DNA from: Methylocystis sp. B8
GTDB taxonomy: Bacteria; Pseudomonadota; Alphaproteobacteria; Rhizobiales; Beijerinckiaceae
Length of the DNA stretch: 64,000 nucleotides
NCBI RefSeq assembly: GCF_005771425.1
Contig: NZ_VBTZ01000011.1
Span: 1-64,000, forward strand
Direction of reading: 5' to 3'
Position numbers and translations under genes: made by a program. Numbering within the stretch: position 1 is the first letter of the stretch; each line of letters begins with the position of its first letter. This document shows positions 2,571 through 44,289 of the stretch, piece after piece. The notes below the pieces were generated by a model that saw only the letters and a program-made list of their open reading frames with translations, made no database searches and had not been told where the DNA came from.

Positions 2571-2951
2571 GTGGAGACACAGACCGTGCTTCAATCTGTT
2601 GCCGAGCCGAGCGGTAGCGACGCACGCGCCGAGCCGCGCCCTGACGCAAAGACTCTGTACGAGGCTGTCGTTGCAGCGCTACGCACCGTGTTCGATCCGG
2701 AGATCCCAGTAAACATTTACGATCTCGGCCTCGTGTACAGAATCGACGTCATCGACCAACGTCATATTGATGTCGATATGACGTTGACGGCGCCGGGATG
2801 TCCGGTTGCCGGCGAGATGATGAACATGGCGAAACGAGCCATTGACGGAGTCGAGTTCGTCTCGAGTTCGAAGGTCAACCTGGTCTTCGACCCGCCGTGG
2901 AACCAGGACATGATGTCGGAAGAAGCCAAATTGGAGCTTGGCTTTCTTTAA
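2571..2951 (+). CDS. sufT: SufT/MIP18-family (DUF59) Fe-S maturation protein
   Basis: SufT-type DUF59 proteins take part in maturation or transfer of Fe-S clusters. The 126-residue product shows the family landmarks DPEIPVNIYDLGLVYRI at about residues 43-59, TAPGCPVAGEM with the conserved cysteine, and the C-terminal DPPWNQDMMSEEAKLELGF. The first 25 residues are a variable extension. It starts with GTG, preceded by GGAAG at a suitable distance. Its place among sufE, a ferredoxin, glutaredoxin and BolA supports a cluster-assembly role tied to nitrogenase, which is inference. Confidence 0.88.
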   Translation: METQTVLQSVAEPSGSDARAEPRPDAKTLYEAVVAALRTVFDPEIPVNIYDLGLVYRIDVIDQRHIDVDMTLTAPGCPVAGEMMNMAKRAIDGVEFVSSSKVNLVFDPPWNQDMMSEEAKLELGFL

Positions 2952-3009
2952 ATTGTAAAAAGCGCTCAGCGCCTAGGCGCCGGCTGTTGACGAAGGAAAA
3001 CACGGTTCC

Positions 3010-3025
3010 CGGCACGAAATTCGCA
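3010..3025 (+). promoter_or_regulatory. Sigma54-like promoter before the dienelactone hydrolase gene
   Basis: CGGCACGAAATTCGCA has GG-N10-GC spacing and a near-consensus -24 box (GGCACG). The first base and the second T of TTGC differ from consensus. The leader to 3105 would be about 70 bases. Candidate only. Confidence 0.45.
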
Positions 3026-3104
3026 GTATGGCCGTGGGCAGACGACTGCGACTTCGCTTCGCCGTGGGAAGGCATCGCCTGCATGAAGACGCGAGGCTGT
3101 CATC

Positions 3105-3851
3105 ATGATTGAACTCACTTCTCAAGACGGACATCATTTCTCGGCCTATCGAGCCGATCCGACCGAGACGCCAAAAGGCGCTGTCGTCGTGCTCCAGGAT
3201 TATTCTGGAGTGAGCCCACACATACAAAAAGAGGTCGACGCCTTCGCGGCGCGCGGCTATGTCGCGATCGCGCCGTCTCTCTTCCAAAGGGGGCAGAAGA
3301 CGGAGGCCGCAAACGCTGAAGAGGGCGTCGAGATCGCCAAAGCAGTTCCAGTCGAGACGGCCTTGCTTGACGTTCAGGCCGCCGTGGACTCGGTTAAGAG
3401 CGCCGGCAAAGTCGCGCTCGTCGGCTATAGTTGGGGCGGATATATCGCCTATGTCTCCGCGAATAATCTAAACGACGTTGCTTGCGCCATCGGCTATTAC
3501 GCAGCCGGTCTGACTGACGAGCACTCAGAAAAGCGCAAGATTCCAACGCTTCTGCATTTTCCTGAGGATGATCCTGCGACGCCTCTCGAAGGCATCAAGC
3601 AGTTTCGGGCGACGCGCCCCGATGTGAGCGCCTTTTCCTATCCTAACGCCAAGGACGGCTTCAATTTCAACACGGCCGACAACTTCGACGCCGAATCCGC
3701 CGAACGGGCAAAGGAGCGCACGCTCTTTTGGATTTCGCAATTCGTTGAAGGTCAGCCGCCGATCGCGCTGAAGAACGCTGGGATGTATGCGCAAGCCAAG
3801 ACCGAAAAGAAGAAGAAAAAGAACGACGACATGGGTCCGCCCATGGACTGA
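3105..3851 (+). CDS. Dienelactone hydrolase family protein with an altered catalytic triad
   Basis: An alpha/beta-hydrolase of 248 residues, cytoplasmic by sequence. The nucleophile elbow is GYSWGG at about residues 107-112, with Ser in the place of the Cys of classical dienelactone hydrolase. An acidic residue follows in FPEDDPATP. The position where the family normally has its catalytic histidine (a Y-P-x-A-x-H-G-F motif) reads YPNAKDGFNF, with Asp for His. The C-terminus is a charged tail rich in lysine (about residues 231-243). The substrate is unknown and hydrolase activity is doubtful. It is the last gene of the sufT side. Confidence 0.8.
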   Translation: MIELTSQDGHHFSAYRADPTETPKGAVVVLQDYSGVSPHIQKEVDAFAARGYVAIAPSLFQRGQKTEAANAEEGVEIAKAVPVETALLDVQAAVDSVKSAGKVALVGYSWGGYIAYVSANNLNDVACAIGYYAAGLTDEHSEKRKIPTLLHFPEDDPATPLEGIKQFRATRPDVSAFSYPNAKDGFNFNTADNFDAESAERAKERTLFWISQFVEGQPPIALKNAGMYAQAKTEKKKKKNDDMGPPMD

Positions 3852-4158: not shown

Positions 4159-4500
4159 TCACGCTTTCGCGATCTGATTATGCGGGATGCTCTTCTTGTC
4201 GAGAAGCGCCGCCAATTCTCCTGTCTGAAACATTTCGCGCGTAATATCACAACCGCCGATGAACTCGCCTTTGACATAAAGCTGAGGGATGGTTGGCCAG
4301 TTCGAGAAGGCTTTGACGCCCTCACGAATGTCTCCGTCGGCCAGTACATTGATAGCCTTATAGGAGGCGCCCATCTGACTGAGAATCTGGACGACCTGCA
4401 TCGAAAAACCGCATTGGGGAGCTTGCGGCGTTCCCTTCATGAAAAGGACGATGTCCGCACTCTCAATCGCTTCTTTGACTCGCGTGGTTGTATCGGACAT
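4159..4500 (-). CDS. grxD: Monothiol glutaredoxin, Grx4/GrxD type
   Basis: CGFS-type glutaredoxins bind a glutathione-ligated [2Fe-2S] cluster and deliver or store clusters, often with BolA. The 113-residue product has the active site PQCGFSMQ at about residues 28-35, the TIPQLYVKGEFIGGCDI glutathione-binding segment and normal length. A GGAG sequence precedes the ATG. It lies 43 bases downstream of bolA on the same strand, so the cluster-binding pair is co-encoded. Confidence 0.95.
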   Translation of the reverse strand: MSDTTTRVKEAIESADIVLFMKGTPQAPQCGFSMQVVQILSQMGASYKAINVLADGDIREGVKAFSNWPTIPQLYVKGEFIGGCDITREMFQTGELAALLDKKSIPHNQIAKA

Positions 4501-4543
4501 TTGCGCGCTCCAACACGAATTGCACCTTAGTTCGGCTCGAAAA

Positions 4544-4774
4544 TTATGGCGCTTGCGTCGTCAGCGCCAGGGCATGTAATTCGCCGCCAAGTTTGTCGCC
4601 CAAAGCGGCGTTGACCAGCTGATGCTGTCGCACGCGACTTAGTCCCTTAAACGCCGACGATGTGACGGTCGCGGACCAATGGTCGTTGTCGTCGGCGAGC
4701 GCCGTCAACGCCGCCACCGCGTCCGGCAGCGCGGTCTTGATAAGACTTTCAATATCTTTCGCAGACATCGGCAT
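4544..4774 (-). CDS. bolA: BolA-family protein
   Basis: A 76-residue BolA/YrbA-type protein, a partner of CGFS glutaredoxin in Fe-S cluster trafficking. The class II-like fold is seen in SRVRQHQLVNAALGDKLGG and the HALALTT end. The start at 4774 is chosen over the longer in-frame ATG at 4852 because AGGA lies 6 to 7 bases upstream and the product then matches family length. It is the first gene of a bolA-grxD pair. Possible regulatory signals lie at 4848-4877. Confidence 0.9.
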   Translation of the reverse strand: MPMSAKDIESLIKTALPDAVAALTALADDNDHWSATVTSSAFKGLSRVRQHQLVNAALGDKLGGELHALALTTQAP

Positions 4775-4847
4775 GGTTATTCCTTCCGAGTCTTCTCGCG
4801 TCAGTCCCGAACAGCTTTCAGCCGTCCAGCGCTGGCGGCCAACGGCA

Positions 4848-4863
4848 TGCAAAATAGGCGCCC
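4848..4863 (-). promoter_or_regulatory. Very weak sigma54-like site before bolA
   Basis: Read on the minus strand, GGGCGCCTATTTTGCA has GG-N10-GC spacing and the TTGCA box but three mismatches in the -24 box. The leader to bolA would be about 60 bases. It overlaps the inverted repeat at 4858-4877. Confidence 0.25.
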
Positions 4864-4877
4864 AATTGTTTGGGCGC
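4858..4877. promoter_or_regulatory. Perfect inverted repeat upstream of bolA
   Basis: GCGCCCAA and TTGGGCGC are exact 8-bp arms separated by TTGT. On the minus strand the hairpin is followed by TATTTT, so it could act as a weak terminator in front of bolA or as an operator. No factor is assigned. Confidence 0.4.
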
Positions 4878-4995
4878 GTCTTTAGAACTTTGCCCTGCCT
4901 GCGACTTCGACGAGCTTGACCGACTATGGTTCGCCGTTAGGATCAGCCGCCGCCGGAACGGCAAACCACATAGAAAAGAATAACAGGGGCAGGAA

Positions 4996-5301
4996 ATGAT
5001 ACGCGAATTTAAATATAAGGGTGAAACCTTCAGAGTTAATGCGCATGGCATACCGGGTCATGAAGAAGTGTTCATCATTCACCTCGTGGACGGCGAGGAG
5101 TTAGGCGAAATCTCTATCGATCGGATGACCGAAGAAAACGACACGAACGCTCCGATCGAGGCGATTTGTGTGATGCTATGTGATAAGTTGATCACTGAGC
5201 AAGATATTCAATGCGCCGATCCAACAGCAGCATTCGTATGGGTCGAGGGCAGGCGTGTGCGGGACGTGCTTCCGAGCAATGACGCCGCCGCTGTCGATTG
5301 A
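4996..5301 (+). CDS. Conserved-looking hypothetical protein, 101 residues
   Basis: Not recognised. The product is a small acidic soluble protein beginning MIREFKYKGETFRVNAHGIP, with a predicted beta-rich first half (EEVFIIHLVDGEELGEISID) and a helix around residues 54-70. There is no signal peptide or membrane segment. Two cysteines (residues 58 and 62, in ICVMLC) and a third at 74 are present, but no known cluster motif. A purine-rich GGGGCAGGA precedes the ATG. It sits divergent from bolA inside the nif-linked region, so a role in nitrogen fixation is possible but unproven. Confidence 0.6.
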   Translation: MIREFKYKGETFRVNAHGIPGHEEVFIIHLVDGEELGEISIDRMTEENDTNAPIEAICVMLCDKLITEQDIQCADPTAAFVWVEGRRVRDVLPSNDAAAVD

Positions 5302-5406
5302 CTGTTCGCGCCATAATTCTGGTTGCTCTCTCGACTCTCATTGTAGTGTTGACGTGGGTCTCGCTTGCGGGACAGACGTGCTGCCGAGCAGCAGGAATTG
5401 ACGCGC

Positions 5407-5448
5407 GGGGAGCGCATGCGCTGTAGGCCTCGTCTACTTGCGCTCCCC
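5407..5448. other. Long stem-loop in the gap before pqqA
   Basis: GGGGAGCGCA (5407-5416) and TGCGCTCCCC (5439-5448) are exact 10-bp arms. A second short stem (GTAG/CTAC) can form in the loop. It lacks a following T-run. The 421-base gap 5302-5722 otherwise holds only the pqqA leader, with a CCGCC-ATATC-GGCGG hairpin near 5683-5697. It could be part of a structured leader or small RNA, or the end of the upstream transcript. Confidence 0.45.
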
Positions 5449-5722
5449 AATCAACCTGTTGACGGCTCCGCTCAAGCGTGCGGGAACGCGACTAACATCG
5501 TAGCCTCACCAGTTTGATTCTGGTCTGGTCCCCATCAATCGCACACAGCTCTGATAATTGAAGGGAGCGCGAATCCGGTGACGAAGTCCGCATGCCATTC
5601 GCGAGGTGGGAAATTTTGGAAGCGCGAATGGAGAAAGTTTGAAGGTGAAAGGATACGCGCCTTTCATTATTCTCGATTGGAACCGCCATATCGGCGGACA
5701 CGAATTTGGAGGAGCAACGCCA

Positions 5723-5800
5723 ATGGCATGGTCGCAACCCACTATCGTTGAAATCTGCGTCGGCATGGAAATCACGAGCTACGAATCGGCTGAGATCTAA
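5723..5800 (+). CDS. pqqA: Pyrroloquinoline quinone precursor peptide PqqA (orphan copy)
   Basis: PqqA is the ribosomal peptide whose Glu and Tyr side chains are cross-linked by PqqE and then become PQQ. The product is 25 residues, with the core EICVGMEITSYESAEI. The E-x-x-x-Y pair is Glu16 and Tyr20, the usual positions. GGAGGAG lies 9 bases before the ATG, so a longer in-frame reading from 5606 is not needed. A strong terminator follows at 5889-5923. No pqqB, C, D, E or F is adjacent, so the peptide must use enzymes encoded elsewhere. Lone extra pqqA copies are known in methylotrophs, where PQQ serves methanol dehydrogenase. Confidence 0.93.
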   Translation: MAWSQPTIVEICVGMEITSYESAEI

Positions 5801-6201: not shown

Positions 6202-6471
6202 ATGGCGTGTAGCGGTTTCCGTCTGCAGCTCGAAGGCTATGGCCTCACGACGGCGAATATTCTCTATCGTCTGCCGGATTACCCGAAGATCATCCAGTCA
6301 TACGTCTGGCAGGAGTATGATCTCCATCCAGACTTCCCGGAACTGCGCAAATTCCTGGATTTCTGGAGGCGTAGCCTCGATGGCCCCCTCCATTCCGTTA
6401 TCGTCGCGCACGCAAATCTGATCAAACCCGCCGAGATGAAGCTGCTCGACGGCGAATTTAGCGTCCACTGA
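6202..6471 (+). CDS. usg: Usg-family protein
   Basis: An 89-residue member of the small alphaproteobacterial Usg family, whose function is not established. The family pattern is plain: LEGYGLTTANILYRLPDYP, YVWQEYDLHPDFPELRKFLD and a C-terminal GPLHSVIVAHANLIKPAE. The start at 6202 is chosen because GAGGAG lies just upstream and the product then has the usual length. The longer reading from 6145 adds nothing conserved. Confidence 0.85.
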   Translation: MACSGFRLQLEGYGLTTANILYRLPDYPKIIQSYVWQEYDLHPDFPELRKFLDFWRRSLDGPLHSVIVAHANLIKPAEMKLLDGEFSVH

Positions 6472-6536
6472 GGGGGCGCCTTGCGGAACGAGCTTCGGCG
6501 AGACAAAATCGCCGAAGGTTTGGAGCGGGGCGGGCT

Positions 6537-6992
6537 GTGAGGGACGAAGCTGATCGAAAGTCTTGGGCGGACGTCTTGGAAGCGGCGGCGGCGATCGCCG
6601 TCGTGGTCGCGGCTTTCCTTTTCGCGAGGCAATATCGGGAAAGCCTTTCCATCGAGGAAGACGCTGAGCCGCTCTCGCTGACTTTGCAGCGCGAAGCGGC
6701 GGAAGTGAACGCCACCCTTCCCGAAATGGTCAGCGAAGGCGTTCGCCTGGATAAGACGACGGCGGGGCCTGGCAACATCTTCAATTACAACTATACGATT
6801 GTCGACGACGAAGCGGCTCGAACGCTGATCGGGAACGCCAAAAAACTCGCCGAATTAAAGAGCCAGTTGCACGAACGCGTTTGTCTGACCATGCCGCAAC
6901 ATCGCACCAGCGGCGCCATTATCAGATATTTTCTGAAGGACAATAAAGGCGAGACGATTGCGGACGTCATGATTGACGCTAGCGACTGTTAA
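6537..6992 (+). CDS. Membrane-anchored protein of unknown function
   Basis: A 151-residue product with a GTG start. After a short charged N-terminus, residues about 15-30 (EAAAAIAVVVAAFLFA) form one membrane segment, and the rest is likely periplasmic. The body carries LPEMVSEGVRLDKTTAGPGN and a Y-N-Y-T-I-V motif, then two cysteines (ERVCLTMP and the final ASDC) that could form a disulfide. The layout resembles a widespread uncharacterised family, but I cannot name it. It begins 65 bases after usg, possibly in one unit. Confidence 0.65.
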   Translation: MRDEADRKSWADVLEAAAAIAVVVAAFLFARQYRESLSIEEDAEPLSLTLQREAAEVNATLPEMVSEGVRLDKTTAGPGNIFNYNYTIVDDEAARTLIGNAKKLAELKSQLHERVCLTMPQHRTSGAIIRYFLKDNKGETIADVMIDASDC

Positions 6993-7043
6993 GAAGGGCG
7001 GGCTGACGCGCCGCGCCATCGAGCCACGAATTGTCCAGCTGCT

Positions 7044-7247
7044 GTGGATCGGCTGCGGCCAAAAACTGTTTCGCTGCGGCTTAAGCGTTGTCCGAGGATG
7101 TGTGCGCCGCGCATCGCCGATGATATAGACGAGATCGTGCAGTCCCATATCATCGAAGGAAAGCCGGTCGAAACGGCTGATTTTTGCGCCGCAGCCATAG
7201 AGACGCCGGACGCCGTCGAGGGGGCCGTAGCAGAAACTAGTTCTTAG
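7044..7247 (+). pseudogene. C-terminal remnant resembling thioredoxin-like [2Fe-2S] ferredoxins
   Basis: The readable part, DDIDEIVQSHIIEGKPVE, resembles the last helix of the ferredoxin at 1987-2337 (EDIDEIFTSHLKGGQRVD). None of the four cluster cysteines of that family is present, and there is no convincing ribosome binding site for the GTG at 7044 or the ATG at 7098. It looks like a truncated gene, though a small expressed protein cannot be excluded. Confidence 0.4.
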
Positions 7248-39321: not shown

Positions 39322-39489
39322 GTCGGACCTGCGGCCTGCGGGGAATGACAACCAAGCTACGGCTCAACCGAATTCGCGCCGCCAGCCCAGACTAGCGGCT
39401 CGGAGCGAGCCTATAGCAGGGGCGGCCGAGAAAGGCAATAAAGATATAAAGATTTCTTTATGTCTATCCGCTGCAGAGGCCGAGTCGCC

Positions 39490-39509
39490 GCAACAAAACG
39501 AAACAAACG
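39490..39509 (+). promoter_or_regulatory. 10-bp direct repeats upstream of the response regulator gene
   Basis: GCAACAAAAC and GAAACAAACG stand head to tail with a 10-base period, the form of OmpR-family binding sites. They lie about 80 bases before the regulator's start. A near-identical array is at 41581-41610. An ATAAAG-ATTT-CTTTAT palindrome lies about 30 bases further upstream. Confidence 0.55.
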
Positions 39510-39585
39510 CGCCAGAATCTCGACACGCCTATCCGGCATGTCCCGGCTGGGAACTGCTCGCTTGGAGCCGCGAATACGCGAATTA

Positions 39586-40317
39586 ATGAGATGCTTGGCC
39601 TTGAGTGAAACCGCACCGGGCGCGGTCGAAAAGCGACGAATCCTCGTCGTGGAAGACGACGTGGAGATCAGATCGCTCGTATCGAGATACCTCAGCGATC
39701 ACGGTTTCAAGGTGATGCTTGCCAGGGACGGCAAGCAGATGGACGAGGTTCTCGCTGGCGAGCAGGTCGATCTCATCGTGCTCGACATCAATCTTCCCGG
39801 CGAGGATGGGCTTTCGATCTGCATGCGTATGCGGAACACGGGAGGGCCTCCGCTAATCATGCTGACCGCGCGAGGCGAGGACACGGACCGGATACTTGGA
39901 ATCGAACTCGGGGCCGACGATTATCTGGTCAAACCCTTTATTCCAAGGGAACTGCTCGCGCGCATTGGCGCCGTCCTCAGGCGGACCGCCCCGAATATCG
40001 AGCCATCTCAGAAAATCAGCGCCTATTGTTTCTCCGGTTTCCTTCTAGACCCTTCCACGCGGCGACTGTTGGAGCCGACCGGCGTAAGGGTGATCCTGAC
40101 GAGCGCGGAATTCGACCTGCTCCTGACGCTCTGCCGCAATCCCGGGAAAGTCTTCTCGCGCGACGAGCTGAAGGCGGCGTCAACGACCGAACGGAGCGTG
40201 GACATTGTGATAAGCCGGCTTCGTCAAAAGATCGAGGCGGACCCGCGAGACCCAGCGCTCATCCAGACAGTCCGCTCGATGGGCTATACGTTCACGGCGA
40301 AAGTCAGCGTTCAGTGA
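39586..40317 (+). CDS. OmpR-family response regulator
   Basis: A 243-residue two-domain regulator. The receiver has the acidic VVEDDVE, the phosphoacceptor Asp in LIVLDINLPGEDG, the Thr in IMLTARGED and the Lys in YLVKPF. The C-terminal winged-helix domain shows LTSAEFDLLLTLCRNPGKVF and the recognition region ERSVDIVISRLRQKIE. The start at 39586 is the first sensible ATG; a TTG at 39601 is possible. It overlaps the kinase gene (GTGA). Direct repeats upstream suggest autoregulation. Confidence 0.92.
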   Translation: MRCLALSETAPGAVEKRRILVVEDDVEIRSLVSRYLSDHGFKVMLARDGKQMDEVLAGEQVDLIVLDINLPGEDGLSICMRMRNTGGPPLIMLTARGEDTDRILGIELGADDYLVKPFIPRELLARIGAVLRRTAPNIEPSQKISAYCFSGFLLDPSTRRLLEPTGVRVILTSAEFDLLLTLCRNPGKVFSRDELKAASTTERSVDIVISRLRQKIEADPRDPALIQTVRSMGYTFTAKVSVQ

Positions 40318-41576
40318 GGACGTCTGCGTTCCGAAACATCAATGTGCAGTTGGGGCTTCTCCTCCTCTTATGCGTCGGCCTGTTCCACGCGGCGGTGACC
40401 GCGATCCTTTTCCTGACTCACCCCGCTCCTGACGATCCTCGGGACCAAAGCGCCGCCGTCATCGTGGCGTCTTTGACGGCTTTAGACGCCGCTTCCGTGA
40501 CGGAAAGGCCGATGATCGCCGCCGCCCTGAACGCAAACCTTCCAGGTTTTCACGTCGAGCTTTCGGAGTCGGTAGTCGCCGCGCGCAATGGGCGTCACCC
40601 GGTCTACTTTCGATCCCGGCTGCCCGTTGGGGTCGAGATCGAAATGAAAGAGGGCCAGCAATTGTTCGGGTCGTTGCATGACGGCCAGAACTTCGTGCTC
40701 GACGCTCCCGATGCGCATCCAGGATTGCGTCGGTTCATCATCATCACCGTCGGCTTCGTCGCGCTCAGTCTGTTCGTCTTCTCACTATGGGCCGCGCTGT
40801 CGCTTACGCGTCCCCTTACGAACTTCGCCAACGCCGCCGAGTCCTTTGGGCTCGACAGCGTCCCGGCGCAACTGCCCGAGAAGGGTCCCGAAGAGGTGCG
40901 CAAGGCGACGCGAGCCTTCAATCGCATGCAGCGTCGCATTGCTGAGATGGCCTCTCAGCGAACGAGGATGTTGACGTCGGTCAGCCATGATTTGCGGACG
41001 CCGATCACGCGAATGCGTCTTCGCGCTGAATACATCGAAAACAGCGACACGAAAGCGAAACTGCTGCGGGACATCGACCAGATGGAGGCGATGGTCGGCG
41101 GCTGTCTCGACTATTTGCGCGGGGGCTTCCGCCAGGAGTTGGTGGTGCTGGATCTGGCAAGCCTGTTGCAATCGGTCGTCGACGAATTCGTCGACGTCGG
41201 CGCAGACGCCCGCTACGACGGGGTCGGTCACGCCAATGTTCTGGGCAGCCCAGATGATCTGCAACGCGCCTTTTCCAACCTTATAGACATTGCGGTGAAA
41301 TACGGGGAGAGCCCGGAGATCCGCCTGTCGGGGAACGATGAAGCGGCCGTCGTCGAGGTCGTCGACAGGGGTCCGGGCATCCCAGCGGAAAAAAGGGAAT
41401 TGATGCTTGAGCCTTTCGAGCGGGGAGATGCGGGCGCGTCCATGAATGCAAACGAGGGCTTCGGATTGGGCTTAGCGATCGCGCGCGCGATCGTGGAAGC
41501 CCACAGCGGACGCCTGACGTTGGACGAGCGGATTGGCGGCGGCCTCGTCGCCAAGGTGTGCCTGCCCAAGATTTGA
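40314..41576 (+). CDS. Sensor histidine kinase with an altered N-box
   Basis: A 420-residue membrane kinase, partner of the preceding regulator. There are two membrane helices (about residues 12-35 and 142-165) around a periplasmic sensor of roughly 105 residues, then HAMP, the H-box SVSHDLRTPITRMRLRAEYI and an ATPase domain with VVDRGPGIP and GFGLGLAIARAI. The N-box reads NLIDIAVKYG, where the second conserved Asn, a Mg-ATP ligand, is Ile. GTG at 40314 is taken as start because it overlaps the regulator stop and gives a normal N-terminus. Confidence 0.88.
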   Translation: MRTSAFRNINVQLGLLLLLCVGLFHAAVTAILFLTHPAPDDPRDQSAAVIVASLTALDAASVTERPMIAAALNANLPGFHVELSESVVAARNGRHPVYFRSRLPVGVEIEMKEGQQLFGSLHDGQNFVLDAPDAHPGLRRFIIITVGFVALSLFVFSLWAALSLTRPLTNFANAAESFGLDSVPAQLPEKGPEEVRKATRAFNRMQRRIAEMASQRTRMLTSVSHDLRTPITRMRLRAEYIENSDTKAKLLRDIDQMEAMVGGCLDYLRGGFRQELVVLDLASLLQSVVDEFVDVGADARYDGVGHANVLGSPDDLQRAFSNLIDIAVKYGESPEIRLSGNDEAAVVEVVDRGPGIPAEKRELMLEPFERGDAGASMNANEGFGLGLAIARAIVEAHSGRLTLDERIGGGLVAKVCLPKI

Positions 41577-41580
41577 CCTC

Positions 41581-41610
41581 GAAACAAAACGAAACAAATC
41601 GAACAAATAA
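41581..41610 (+). promoter_or_regulatory. Three 10-bp direct repeats upstream of the glycosyltransferase gene
   Basis: GAAACAAAAC, GAAACAAATC and GAACAAATAA follow each other without gaps, 5 bases after the kinase stop. They match the pair at 39490-39509. The array is 46 bases before the glycosyltransferase start, so it probably controls that gene. Confidence 0.6.
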
Positions 41611-41655
41611 ATGTCTTTGGAGAATCCGACCTAGGACCCGAAGAGGGTCATTGGG

Positions 41656-42912
41656 ATGTCGGCACATCAATCGGTTCCCGGCTGCGTCGCGCTATCGGGC
41701 AAAACAGTCGCAGTCGTGCATCCTGCCTGGCATTCCTGCGGAACGCATCAGGTTATCGCGAGTCAAATAAGGGCCTACAAAAGTCTTGGCGCGCGTGTGC
41801 TCTCCGTGGCGATCATGGACGATGTCACGCGCTCGATCGGCGCCGGCGCACGCTGGAATGATTATCGTGCGCATAGTCGGGACCTCGCTGCCGACGGGAG
41901 ATATGAATCGTCCGCAACGATCGCGGACCTCTTCAAGACGGCGCTCCTGAGAGACGGCTGGTGGCGTTTTATTCATGGCGACCATGCCAATTGGCTCGTG
42001 GAGGTGGTCAAGCGCGCGCCTCTGCCCGAAGGGCTCGATACGGACGCGATCGACCTGATCCACGCCAATCATTTCTTCGTGATGCCCTTCGTCGAGAGAA
42101 TGCGCGAGCGGCGCCGCATTCCCGTAATGATCGACACTCATGACATCCAGGCGCGGCAATACGAGCTCCGCAATCGGACTGGATTCATTCTCCCGCCGTA
42201 TGCCGGCTATGATGGTTTGCTCGCGGTCGAACTCGACTGGCTCAGGCGCGCCGACATCTGCATTCACTTGAATTCGGAGGAGCATGCGGCGTTCAGCCGT
42301 CTTCTGCCCCTCTCTTCTCACGAGTTGATCTATCCTTCGATCGCCCGAGTGCGTGCCGGAGCCAATGGCGCCCAGGCCATTTTTGTCGCGAGCAACAATG
42401 CGGCGAATTACATCAGCGCGCGATGGTTTTTGAAATATATTGCGCCACGCGCGCGCGAAATGTCGATCTCCATTTTTGGAAACATTGACGGGGGCGTGAA
42501 GAGCCGTGACAGGGGGTTATATGAGAATAATCGCCATCTTTTCCGGGGCGAGATCGCCGATATACAGTCCGCCTACGCCGATGCAGCTGTTGTCCTGCTT
42601 CCAACTAGAGAAGGGCATGGCCTTTCGATCAAAACCGTGGAAGCTCTGTCCAGCGGACTGCCGATCATTGCGACGTCGAAGGCTTTCAGGGGAATGGAGA
42701 TCGACCCTTCGCGACTCGGGAACGTGTTTATCGCGGACGACGCCAGCGAATTCGCCGCCGCTATGGTCGAGCGCCAGTCAATGGATCGAGGAAGCGATCC
42801 GAGGGCGAGCGATACGCGTACGCTATACGAAGAGAGATACTCACTGGAACACTATGCAAGTCGGCTGGGCGACGTCGCATGCAAGTTGATTGCCCGGATG
42901 CAAACGACGTGA
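41656..42912 (+). CDS. Glycosyltransferase (GT4-like)
   Basis: A 418-residue cytoplasmic or membrane-associated GT-B fold protein. The C-terminal half carries the donor-binding pattern PTREGHGLSIKTVEALSSGL, then PIIATSKAFRGM, typical of GT4-type retaining transferases. The N-terminal domain includes HPAWHSCGTHQVIASQI and IDTHDIQARQYE. It probably transfers a sugar to a surface polysaccharide; acceptor and sugar are unknown. The ribosome binding site is weak. It lies 79 bases after a two-component system and shares its operator-like repeats. Confidence 0.8.
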   Translation: MSAHQSVPGCVALSGKTVAVVHPAWHSCGTHQVIASQIRAYKSLGARVLSVAIMDDVTRSIGAGARWNDYRAHSRDLAADGRYESSATIADLFKTALLRDGWWRFIHGDHANWLVEVVKRAPLPEGLDTDAIDLIHANHFFVMPFVERMRERRRIPVMIDTHDIQARQYELRNRTGFILPPYAGYDGLLAVELDWLRRADICIHLNSEEHAAFSRLLPLSSHELIYPSIARVRAGANGAQAIFVASNNAANYISARWFLKYIAPRAREMSISIFGNIDGGVKSRDRGLYENNRHLFRGEIADIQSAYADAAVVLLPTREGHGLSIKTVEALSSGLPIIATSKAFRGMEIDPSRLGNVFIADDASEFAAAMVERQSMDRGSDPRASDTRTLYEERYSLEHYASRLGDVACKLIARMQTT

Positions 42913-43056
42913 GCCATGCCGGCGGCGCTTTTCTGTCGCGGCAACGGGGCTTCCAGCAGGCAAAAGTTTGTTACAGGACTTGCGATAGGTTTCGCGCCGC
43001 GCAGCCATAATTGACCACAGGCCAAATGCGCCTCTAAGCAACATGCGCGGGAACCT

Positions 43057-44289
43057 ATGAGGCCGATTCGTCGGCGCGGGGCGCTGGCGCCGATGACCTT
43101 CGACATTTATGAGCTGGGGCTGCTGCTCGCCGTCACGACCGCGGTGGCGCTCGTCTGCGAGCGGATGAGGCTGCCATATACGATCGGCCTGGTGCTCGCT
43201 GGCCTCGCTCTTGCGGCGCTGCCGCTCAAGATCGAACTGCCGCTGTCAAAGGACTTCGTCTACACCTTCCTGCTGCCGCCATTAGTGTTCGAGGCGGCGC
43301 TGCGGCTGAGCTGGCCAAGGCTGCGCCGCGATCTTCCGGTGATTCTCACGCTCGCCGGGCCAGGACTCATCGTCTCGGCGCTGCTGCTTGCAGCCGGCAT
43401 GCACTGGATCGCTGGCTGGTCGTGGACCGCGGCGGGGCTGTTTGGCGCGCTGATCTCGGCAACCGATCCCGTCGCTGTCGTCGCCACCTTCGACGAAGCC
43501 AGGGTGCGGGGGCGGGTCGACCTGCTGGTGCGCGCGGAAAGTCTGATAAATGACGGAACGGCGGCGACGGCTTTCGCCATCCTGCTTGCGATCGCGCTCG
43601 GCGCGCCGGCCGCGCCCATGGAAGTGACATGGACGTTGCTTCTAACTGTTGGCGGGGGGCTCGCCAGCGGCTTCGCCGTGGCGGGAGCGCTACTCTTTTT
43701 CGTGGGTCACACCAATAATAACTTAGTCAAGATCACGCTAACGACGCTGTGCGGTTATGGCTCCTTTTTGTTGGCCCAGCGAATAGACGCTTCGGGCGTG
43801 CTAGCTGCGCTTGCGGCAGGTCTGGTCGTGGCGCAAGGAAGCCGGTGGGGGCTTTTCGGCTCTACCGGACAGGGCGCGGTCGCGGCCTTCTGGGAATATG
43901 TCGCCTTTCTCGTCAATTCGGTAATCTTCATCCTGATTGGTCTGCATGAGGCCGAGCGGCATTTTCTGCCGGTGTTCTGGCCCGCCTCCGCCGCGATATT
44001 GCTTGCCGTCGCCGGGCGCGCCATTGCCGTCTACCCCTTCTGCGCCTTGTTTCGGGGAACGCGTTACGCTGTCGAACTCAGGCACCAACATGTGCTGTTC
44101 TGGGGCGGCTTTCGTGGCGCCTTGCCGCTGGCGCTCGCGCTTGGATTGCCGATGTCGATCGCTGAACGCGAAGACCTCGTCACCGTGACCTTCGCGGTGG
44201 TGGCGTTCTCCGTCTTCGTTCAGACGCTGGTGATGATCCCGTTACTTTATCGGCTGGGAGTGATTCATCGTCCGGCAGATCAGACTTAA
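43057..44289 (+). CDS. CPA1-family sodium/proton antiporter
   Basis: A 410-residue inner-membrane antiporter with about 12 membrane segments. The family core is visible: FLLPPLVFEAALRL, the ATDPVAVVATF motif with the transport Asp, RAESLINDGTAATAF, and FWEYVAFLVNSVIFILIGL, then WGGFRGALPLALAL. It would exchange Na+ or K+ for protons in pH and salt balance. The start may be 43057 (GGGAA upstream) or 43093. Confidence 0.92.
   Translation: MRPIRRRGALAPMTFDIYELGLLLAVTTAVALVCERMRLPYTIGLVLAGLALAALPLKIELPLSKDFVYTFLLPPLVFEAALRLSWPRLRRDLPVILTLAGPGLIVSALLLAAGMHWIAGWSWTAAGLFGALISATDPVAVVATFDEARVRGRVDLLVRAESLINDGTAATAFAILLAIALGAPAAPMEVTWTLLLTVGGGLASGFAVAGALLFFVGHTNNNLVKITLTTLCGYGSFLLAQRIDASGVLAALAAGLVVAQGSRWGLFGSTGQGAVAAFWEYVAFLVNSVIFILIGLHEAERHFLPVFWPASAAILLAVAGRAIAVYPFCALFRGTRYAVELRHQHVLFWGGFRGALPLALALGLPMSIAEREDLVTVTFAVVAFSVFVQTLVMIPLLYRLGVIHRPADQT

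Follow-up and report, generated by a model that had tools for sequence, protein, structure and literature searches.

Regulators of the OmpR type bind tandem 10-bp units arranged head-to-tail, a form into which the sites described here fit, and tandem sites of the OmpR/PhoB type usually activate. PhoB, a member of the same superfamily, also binds head-to-tail tandem repeats, the units of its pho boxes being 11 bp long, and the alpha2-alpha3 loop of PhoB and OmpR contacts RNA polymerase. For Salmonella OmpR, a ChIP-seq study reports the motif TGTWACAW, its absence from the classical ompC/ompF sites and a loose specificity of the regulator (PMC3586657), and a reference title in PMC5727384 describes EnvZ N347D as kinase-minus/phosphatase-plus. 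BvrR/BvrS and ChvI/ChvG (ChvGI of Caulobacter) are alphaproteobacterial, envelope-related two-component systems; for BvrR a 14-bp motif is reported together with a regulon spanning metabolism, envelope and virulence, with bvrR itself among the targets examined for the motif (PMC9491525).

The locus compared here lies in the window, i.e. the whole stretch of 64,000 nucleotides that was analysed, and encodes a two-component system followed by a glycosyltransferase, with one predicted operator (O1) ahead of the regulator gene and another (O2) ahead of the glycosyltransferase gene. It is closest to the enterobacterial EnvZ/OmpR system, which provides the best model and structure matches both for the kinase and for the DNA-binding domain of the regulator, and the core of the repeated unit, GnAACA, is compatible with one of the forms that the Salmonella motif TGTWACAW (PMC3586657) can take. 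It differs from EnvZ/OmpR in that the cut-offs of the respective models are missed, the alpha2-alpha3 loop is short, the regulon that this word reveals is very small and local, and the target in the window is a glycosyltransferase rather than a porin. We interpret O1 and O2 as predicted binding sites of the regulator encoded between them, which would control its own synthesis as well as the glycosyltransferase gene, and give this reading, made from sequence, a probability of about 0.82. The features concerned are:

39490 to 39509, forward strand: operator O1, predicted; two head-to-tail 10-bp units, at -96 to -77 bp relative to the regulator ATG
39510 to 39526, forward strand: conserved 17-bp element immediately 3' of O1; predicted, probably the core promoter
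39586 to 40317, forward strand: OmpR-family response regulator with receiver and Trans_reg_C domains; ATG start placed from relatives
40314 to 41576, forward strand: EnvZ-like histidine kinase with HAMP, HisKA and HATPase_c domains; GTG start overlapping the regulator stop
41289 to 41291, forward strand: kinase codon 326, Ile at the N-box position in the alignment with relatives and EnvZ
41581 to 41600, forward strand: operator O2, predicted; two head-to-tail 10-bp units in the gap between kinase and glycosyltransferase
41601 to 41610, forward strand: degenerate third unit 3' of O2; conserved, one base short of a unit
41656 to 42912, forward strand: GT4-type glycosyltransferase (Glyco_trans_1_4) by profile match; predicted direct target
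904 to 1764 of the relative locus L163: sulfotransferase-like gene, by three-residue motif

The regulator, the kinase and the glycosyltransferase

The regulator carries Response_reg (98.7 bits) and Trans_reg_C (68.9 bits) domains over their cut-offs and thus belongs to the OmpR/PhoB family. As its score against the OmpR osmolarity equivalog NF007005 (237.1 bits) is below the cut-off of 331, it is treated as OmpR-like and not as OmpR; its score against PhoB is lower, at 174.7 bits. The solved structures nearest to its DNA-binding domain are the OmpR entries 1opc (best) and 1odd, and 10 of 16 residues in the recognition-helix region are identical to OmpR by manual count. Compared to OmpR, and to a paralogous regulator on contig C12 of the same genome (53% identity), it lacks six residues in the stretch that links helices alpha2 and alpha3 (around 40160-40200), and this short form is common to all 16 relatives aligned (of 17, L168 being left out). 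Half-site pairs of tandem 10-bp direct units are present and conserved at the locus of the regulator. An earlier start of the regulator ORF at 39460, by which O1 would fall within a longer gene, was discarded, as homology with the relatives begins at about 39586 and the sequence upstream of O1 varies between clades. Among the plasmid matches listed, limited to 5000 records, the regulator has no close ortholog (best 56%), and in a scan of named genomes the best 80 loci are all 35-49% identical and do not represent orthologs.

HAMP, HisKA and HATPase_c domains were found in the kinase, as was the H-box SHDLRTP. Its best matches are the EnvZ model and EnvZ structures, although it reaches 198.5 bits against NF007004 (EnvZ), with a cut-off of 415; unlike ChvG, it lies far under the cut-off of the Caulobacter-type ChvG model (64.9 bits against 740). 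Of the hallmarks of an EnvZ-type bifunctional kinase it possesses the domains and the H-box and lacks the N-box Asn. The residue is Ile326 in the window kinase and Asn in all 17 aligned relatives and in the EnvZ N box; in our reading of the alignment it would correspond to EnvZ residue 347. As Ile replaces the N-box Asn, kinase activity may be lost in the window strain, in which case the circuit may rest unphosphorylated there. Alternatively, Ile326 possibly stems from a single-base sequencing error.

The glycosyltransferase matches PF13692 (53.2 bits, cut-off 27) and, below its cut-off of 26.4, PF00534 (22.3 bits), matches which we take to mean CAZy family GT4. That it makes a surface sugar, as the earlier note assumed, or acts on an envelope glycan goes beyond this family assignment and is putative. 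Among solved structures no relative was found at E 0.01, and a plasmid search returned no close ortholog (best 49%). The genome of the window strain also contains tandem glycosyltransferase paralogs with 57% and 43% identity (contig C1, 507812-510420), and similar tandem pairs are listed in other members of the family.

Uniqueness and conservation of the predicted operator sites

The units of 10-bp period, GnAACAAAAC/GAAACAAAnn, which the earlier note had placed ahead of the regulator gene at 39490-39509, are correct in coordinates and letters. Of the three units it had described before the glycosyltransferase gene, the two at 41581-41600 stand, while the third (41601-41610) lacks one base and is degenerate. 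As its third base also deviates in 13 of 15 aligned glycosyltransferase leaders, three units is a generous count; the stretch itself is highly conserved. O2 starts four bases past the kinase stop codon and 75 bp ahead of the glycosyltransferase ATG. The two sites have an exact 16-mer in common (39492-39507 and 41583-41598), the longest word shared by the intergenic regions before the regulator (342 bp) and before the glycosyltransferase (79 bp); the maximum in 2000 paired dinucleotide-preserving shuffles was 12. With up to three mismatches the 16-mer occurs three times in the window, against a shuffle mean of 0.26 and with none of 100 shuffles reaching three; the third match, at 5132, has three mismatches. 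No sigma-70 consensus promoter was found in 39350-43100 (shuffle mean 1.0). A possible hairpin was noted by eye in the alignment of glycosyltransferase leaders; to judge by eye again, its arms seem not to be retained in the more distant loci L169 and L171.

In the whole 3.4-Mb genome of the window strain the 16-mer matches O1 and O2 only at up to two mismatches (reversed control: one match). A relaxed 15-base pattern gives 15 matches at up to one mismatch against seven for the control, so that weaker real targets, if any, are indistinguishable from background. Throughout the genus, 24 matches to the 16-mer at up to one mismatch are found in 17 of 39 genomes (control: one), and the relaxed pattern, matched exactly, gives 45, of which 35 (assigned by hand from coordinates) lie in the locus and 10 elsewhere, the reversed control giving eight. 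These numbers argue for a small, local regulon, and the random scatter through the genome that the earlier note had named as refuting is not what the scan returned.

An orthologous kinase (at least 70% identity) is present in 17 of the 39 genus genomes, the window strain included, and an eighteenth (G161) has a truncated kinase at 62% identity. The 16-mer, at up to one mismatch, occurs in 15 of the 17 kinase-bearing genomes, the two lacking it being G149 and G163, versus two of the 22 others. These two, G178 and G180, which are without the system, hold three matches, two inside mechanical ORFs and one upstream of an ORF, in line with chance. A glycosyltransferase ortholog (at least 66% identity) is likewise found in 16 of the 17 kinase-bearing genomes and in none of the 22 others, seven of which are under 90% complete. 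All the genomes that show this conservation belong to a single related clade and are not independent of one another. Fisher tests on these co-occurrences, which treat related genomes as independent, yield values not readable as probabilities.

Relative loci were taken from the 16 other kinase-bearing genus genomes, from G161 and from G229, a member of another genus. Regulator and kinase are both found in 17 of these 18; the G161 locus (L170) meets a contig end, has no regulator match on its piece and was left out, so that the comparison comprises 18 loci, the window and 17 relatives. The glycosyltransferase directly follows the kinase in 16 of them. In 16 of the 18 the site before the regulator deviates from the 18-mer by at most three mismatches; it has four in L168, while that of L169 (at 2112, score 18.9) was found by matrix scan only, with a matrix built from the sites scored, one misplaced L169 spot included. 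It starts 90-102 bp ahead of the reference codon (39592 in the window) in 18 of 18 loci, the L169 value being taken from the matrix match. The site after the kinase is also within three mismatches in 16 of 18 loci, with four in L171 and seven in L168.

In 13 of the 17 relatives the kinase ORF extends across O2 in one and the same frame, and part of the conservation of O2 could therefore be at the protein level. However, the kinase stops before O2 in the window and L155 and inside it in L171, and in L166 it crosses O2 in a different frame, with its stop at the site end; the O2 word thus persists across differing kinase frames, albeit with the mismatches noted for L171. This change of frame is a better argument for constraint on the DNA than a codon-usage test, which gave a probability of 0.002 over six codons picked after inspection. 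As to O1, the sequence upstream was aligned for 15 loci, the most divergent (L168, L169 and L171) being left out. Six have a flank of the window type and nine another flank, which in eight of the nine follows a sulfotransferase-like gene. Despite the two flank types the conserved block begins at O1 and continues through 39510-39526.

Rearranged loci and additional candidate targets

L169 has its glycosyltransferase ortholog (66% identity) in inverted orientation about 3 kb from the kinase, with an operator ahead of it. Beside it an outer-membrane beta-barrel gene (OMP_b-brl; 2900-3678, fetched orientation) also has an operator ahead, and the operator linked to the kinase is now followed by a chimeric ORF (4315-5724, fetched orientation). 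The N-terminus of this ORF is glycosyltransferase-like (42% over 141 positions) and its C-terminus weakly matches an alpha/beta hydrolase. L168 retains no more than a stub of the glycosyltransferase, and its site after the kinase is degraded. The leader of the stub still has an operator-like site, so that loss of the glycosyltransferase did not erase every copy, and the glycosyltransferase leaders of L168 and L169 are related copies. An APS kinase gene (3083-3661) follows the two-component system in L168, and the ORF after the stub (6366-7118, both in fetched orientation) has a sulfotransferase-like motif by eye, without Pfam support.

Eight of the 17 relatives (L154, L157, L158, L159, L160, L162, L163 and L167) carry a sulfotransferase-like gene upstream of their regulator gene, the ORFs being chosen by a three-residue motif, by which others may be missed. 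Its products reach 14.5 and 16 bits against Sulfotransfer_1, under the cut-off of 22, and resemble sulfotransferases of known structure weakly in profile comparison (best E 0.36). An operator-like site precedes the gene in all eight, with matrix scores from 13.7 to 29.3. Three of these sites reach 13.7, less than the highest-scoring site that appears to be stray (15.9, in L171), and the case for them accordingly rests on their shared position. The element after the operator is very similar to that of the regulator promoter, so that the promoter of the sulfotransferase-like gene probably arose by duplication and offers no independent evidence of recognition. With the alignment of the eight relatives as query the gene was not found in the genome of the window strain, a search that is weak as it lacks a positive control.

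The predicted circuit and competing explanations

In the proposed mechanism a phosphorylated regulator dimer would occupy the two 10-bp units in head-to-tail arrangement, along a single face of the DNA and beside or over the -35 region; we infer both the binding to O1 and O2 and this dimer geometry. At O1 the regulator would control its own regulator-kinase operon and at O2 the neighbouring glycosyltransferase gene, which would form a transcription unit of its own, and the regulon detectable by the 16-mer would be tiny and local. The operator form of the OmpR family recognised in the earlier note agrees with an OmpR/PhoB-family regulator whose DNA-binding domain is nearest OmpR, with the EnvZ-like kinase and with sites conserved clade-wide. 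The predictions that it drew from this form, autoregulation and direct control of the glycosyltransferase gene, are, at the level of sequence, well supported by the uniqueness of the sites, their conservation and the kinship of the regulator.

On the direction of control we lean towards activation, as sites of this type usually activate and as both lie upstream of presumed core promoters, not over a recognisable one. A repressor at O1 and O2, for which the missing sigma-70 consensus and the residues absent from the region of the polymerase-contacting loop may speak, is less likely. It is improbable that the paralog on contig C12 is the main binder, with the local two-component system as one of its targets. 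Its recognition-helix stretch is nearly the same as that of the local regulator (16 of 19 residues identical, manual count), and it could bind the sites as well, but operator matches track the local kinase; 20 of the 22 genomes without this kinase still have some other kinase match, which in part may be of the C12 line. We consider it very improbable that a mobile or duplicated cassette ends in these direct repeats (as a target-site duplication or recombination sites) and that they lack a regulatory role. They do flank a 2.1-kb gene pair, the upstream flanks of the locus differ by clade, and promoter-plus-leader segments were apparently duplicated, yet either site is in itself composed of tandem 10-bp units, several relatives keep both O1 and O2 with sequences that differ from each other, and further copies stand ahead of other genes in the orientation of those genes.

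Building on the reading of O1 and O2 as sites of the local regulator, a bolder and on balance unlikely proposal has two parts that would have to hold together. Operator and leader might form a portable envelope-glycan cassette, copies of which occur near the regulator locus, in different species, before the glycosyltransferase gene, before the sulfotransferase-like gene and, there with another leader, before a gene for an outer-membrane protein; and loss of the N-box Asn might have locked the window circuit in a phosphatase-only, unstimulated state.

The host is very probably a methanotroph, as its genome has two AMO/pMMO family matches over cut-off. Literature searches on OmpR in Methylocystis, on EnvZ in methanotrophs and on the 15-base word returned nothing on this system, subscription papers being mostly outside their coverage, and the system is apparently uncharacterised in methanotrophs. 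The sensor-regulator pair with its paired operators is a small example of a well-known type of switch. The analysis gives a methanotroph two-component system a defined predicted operator and a compact predicted regulon, and the natural variants, in which target genes have been moved, lost or swapped, make the prediction cheap to test.
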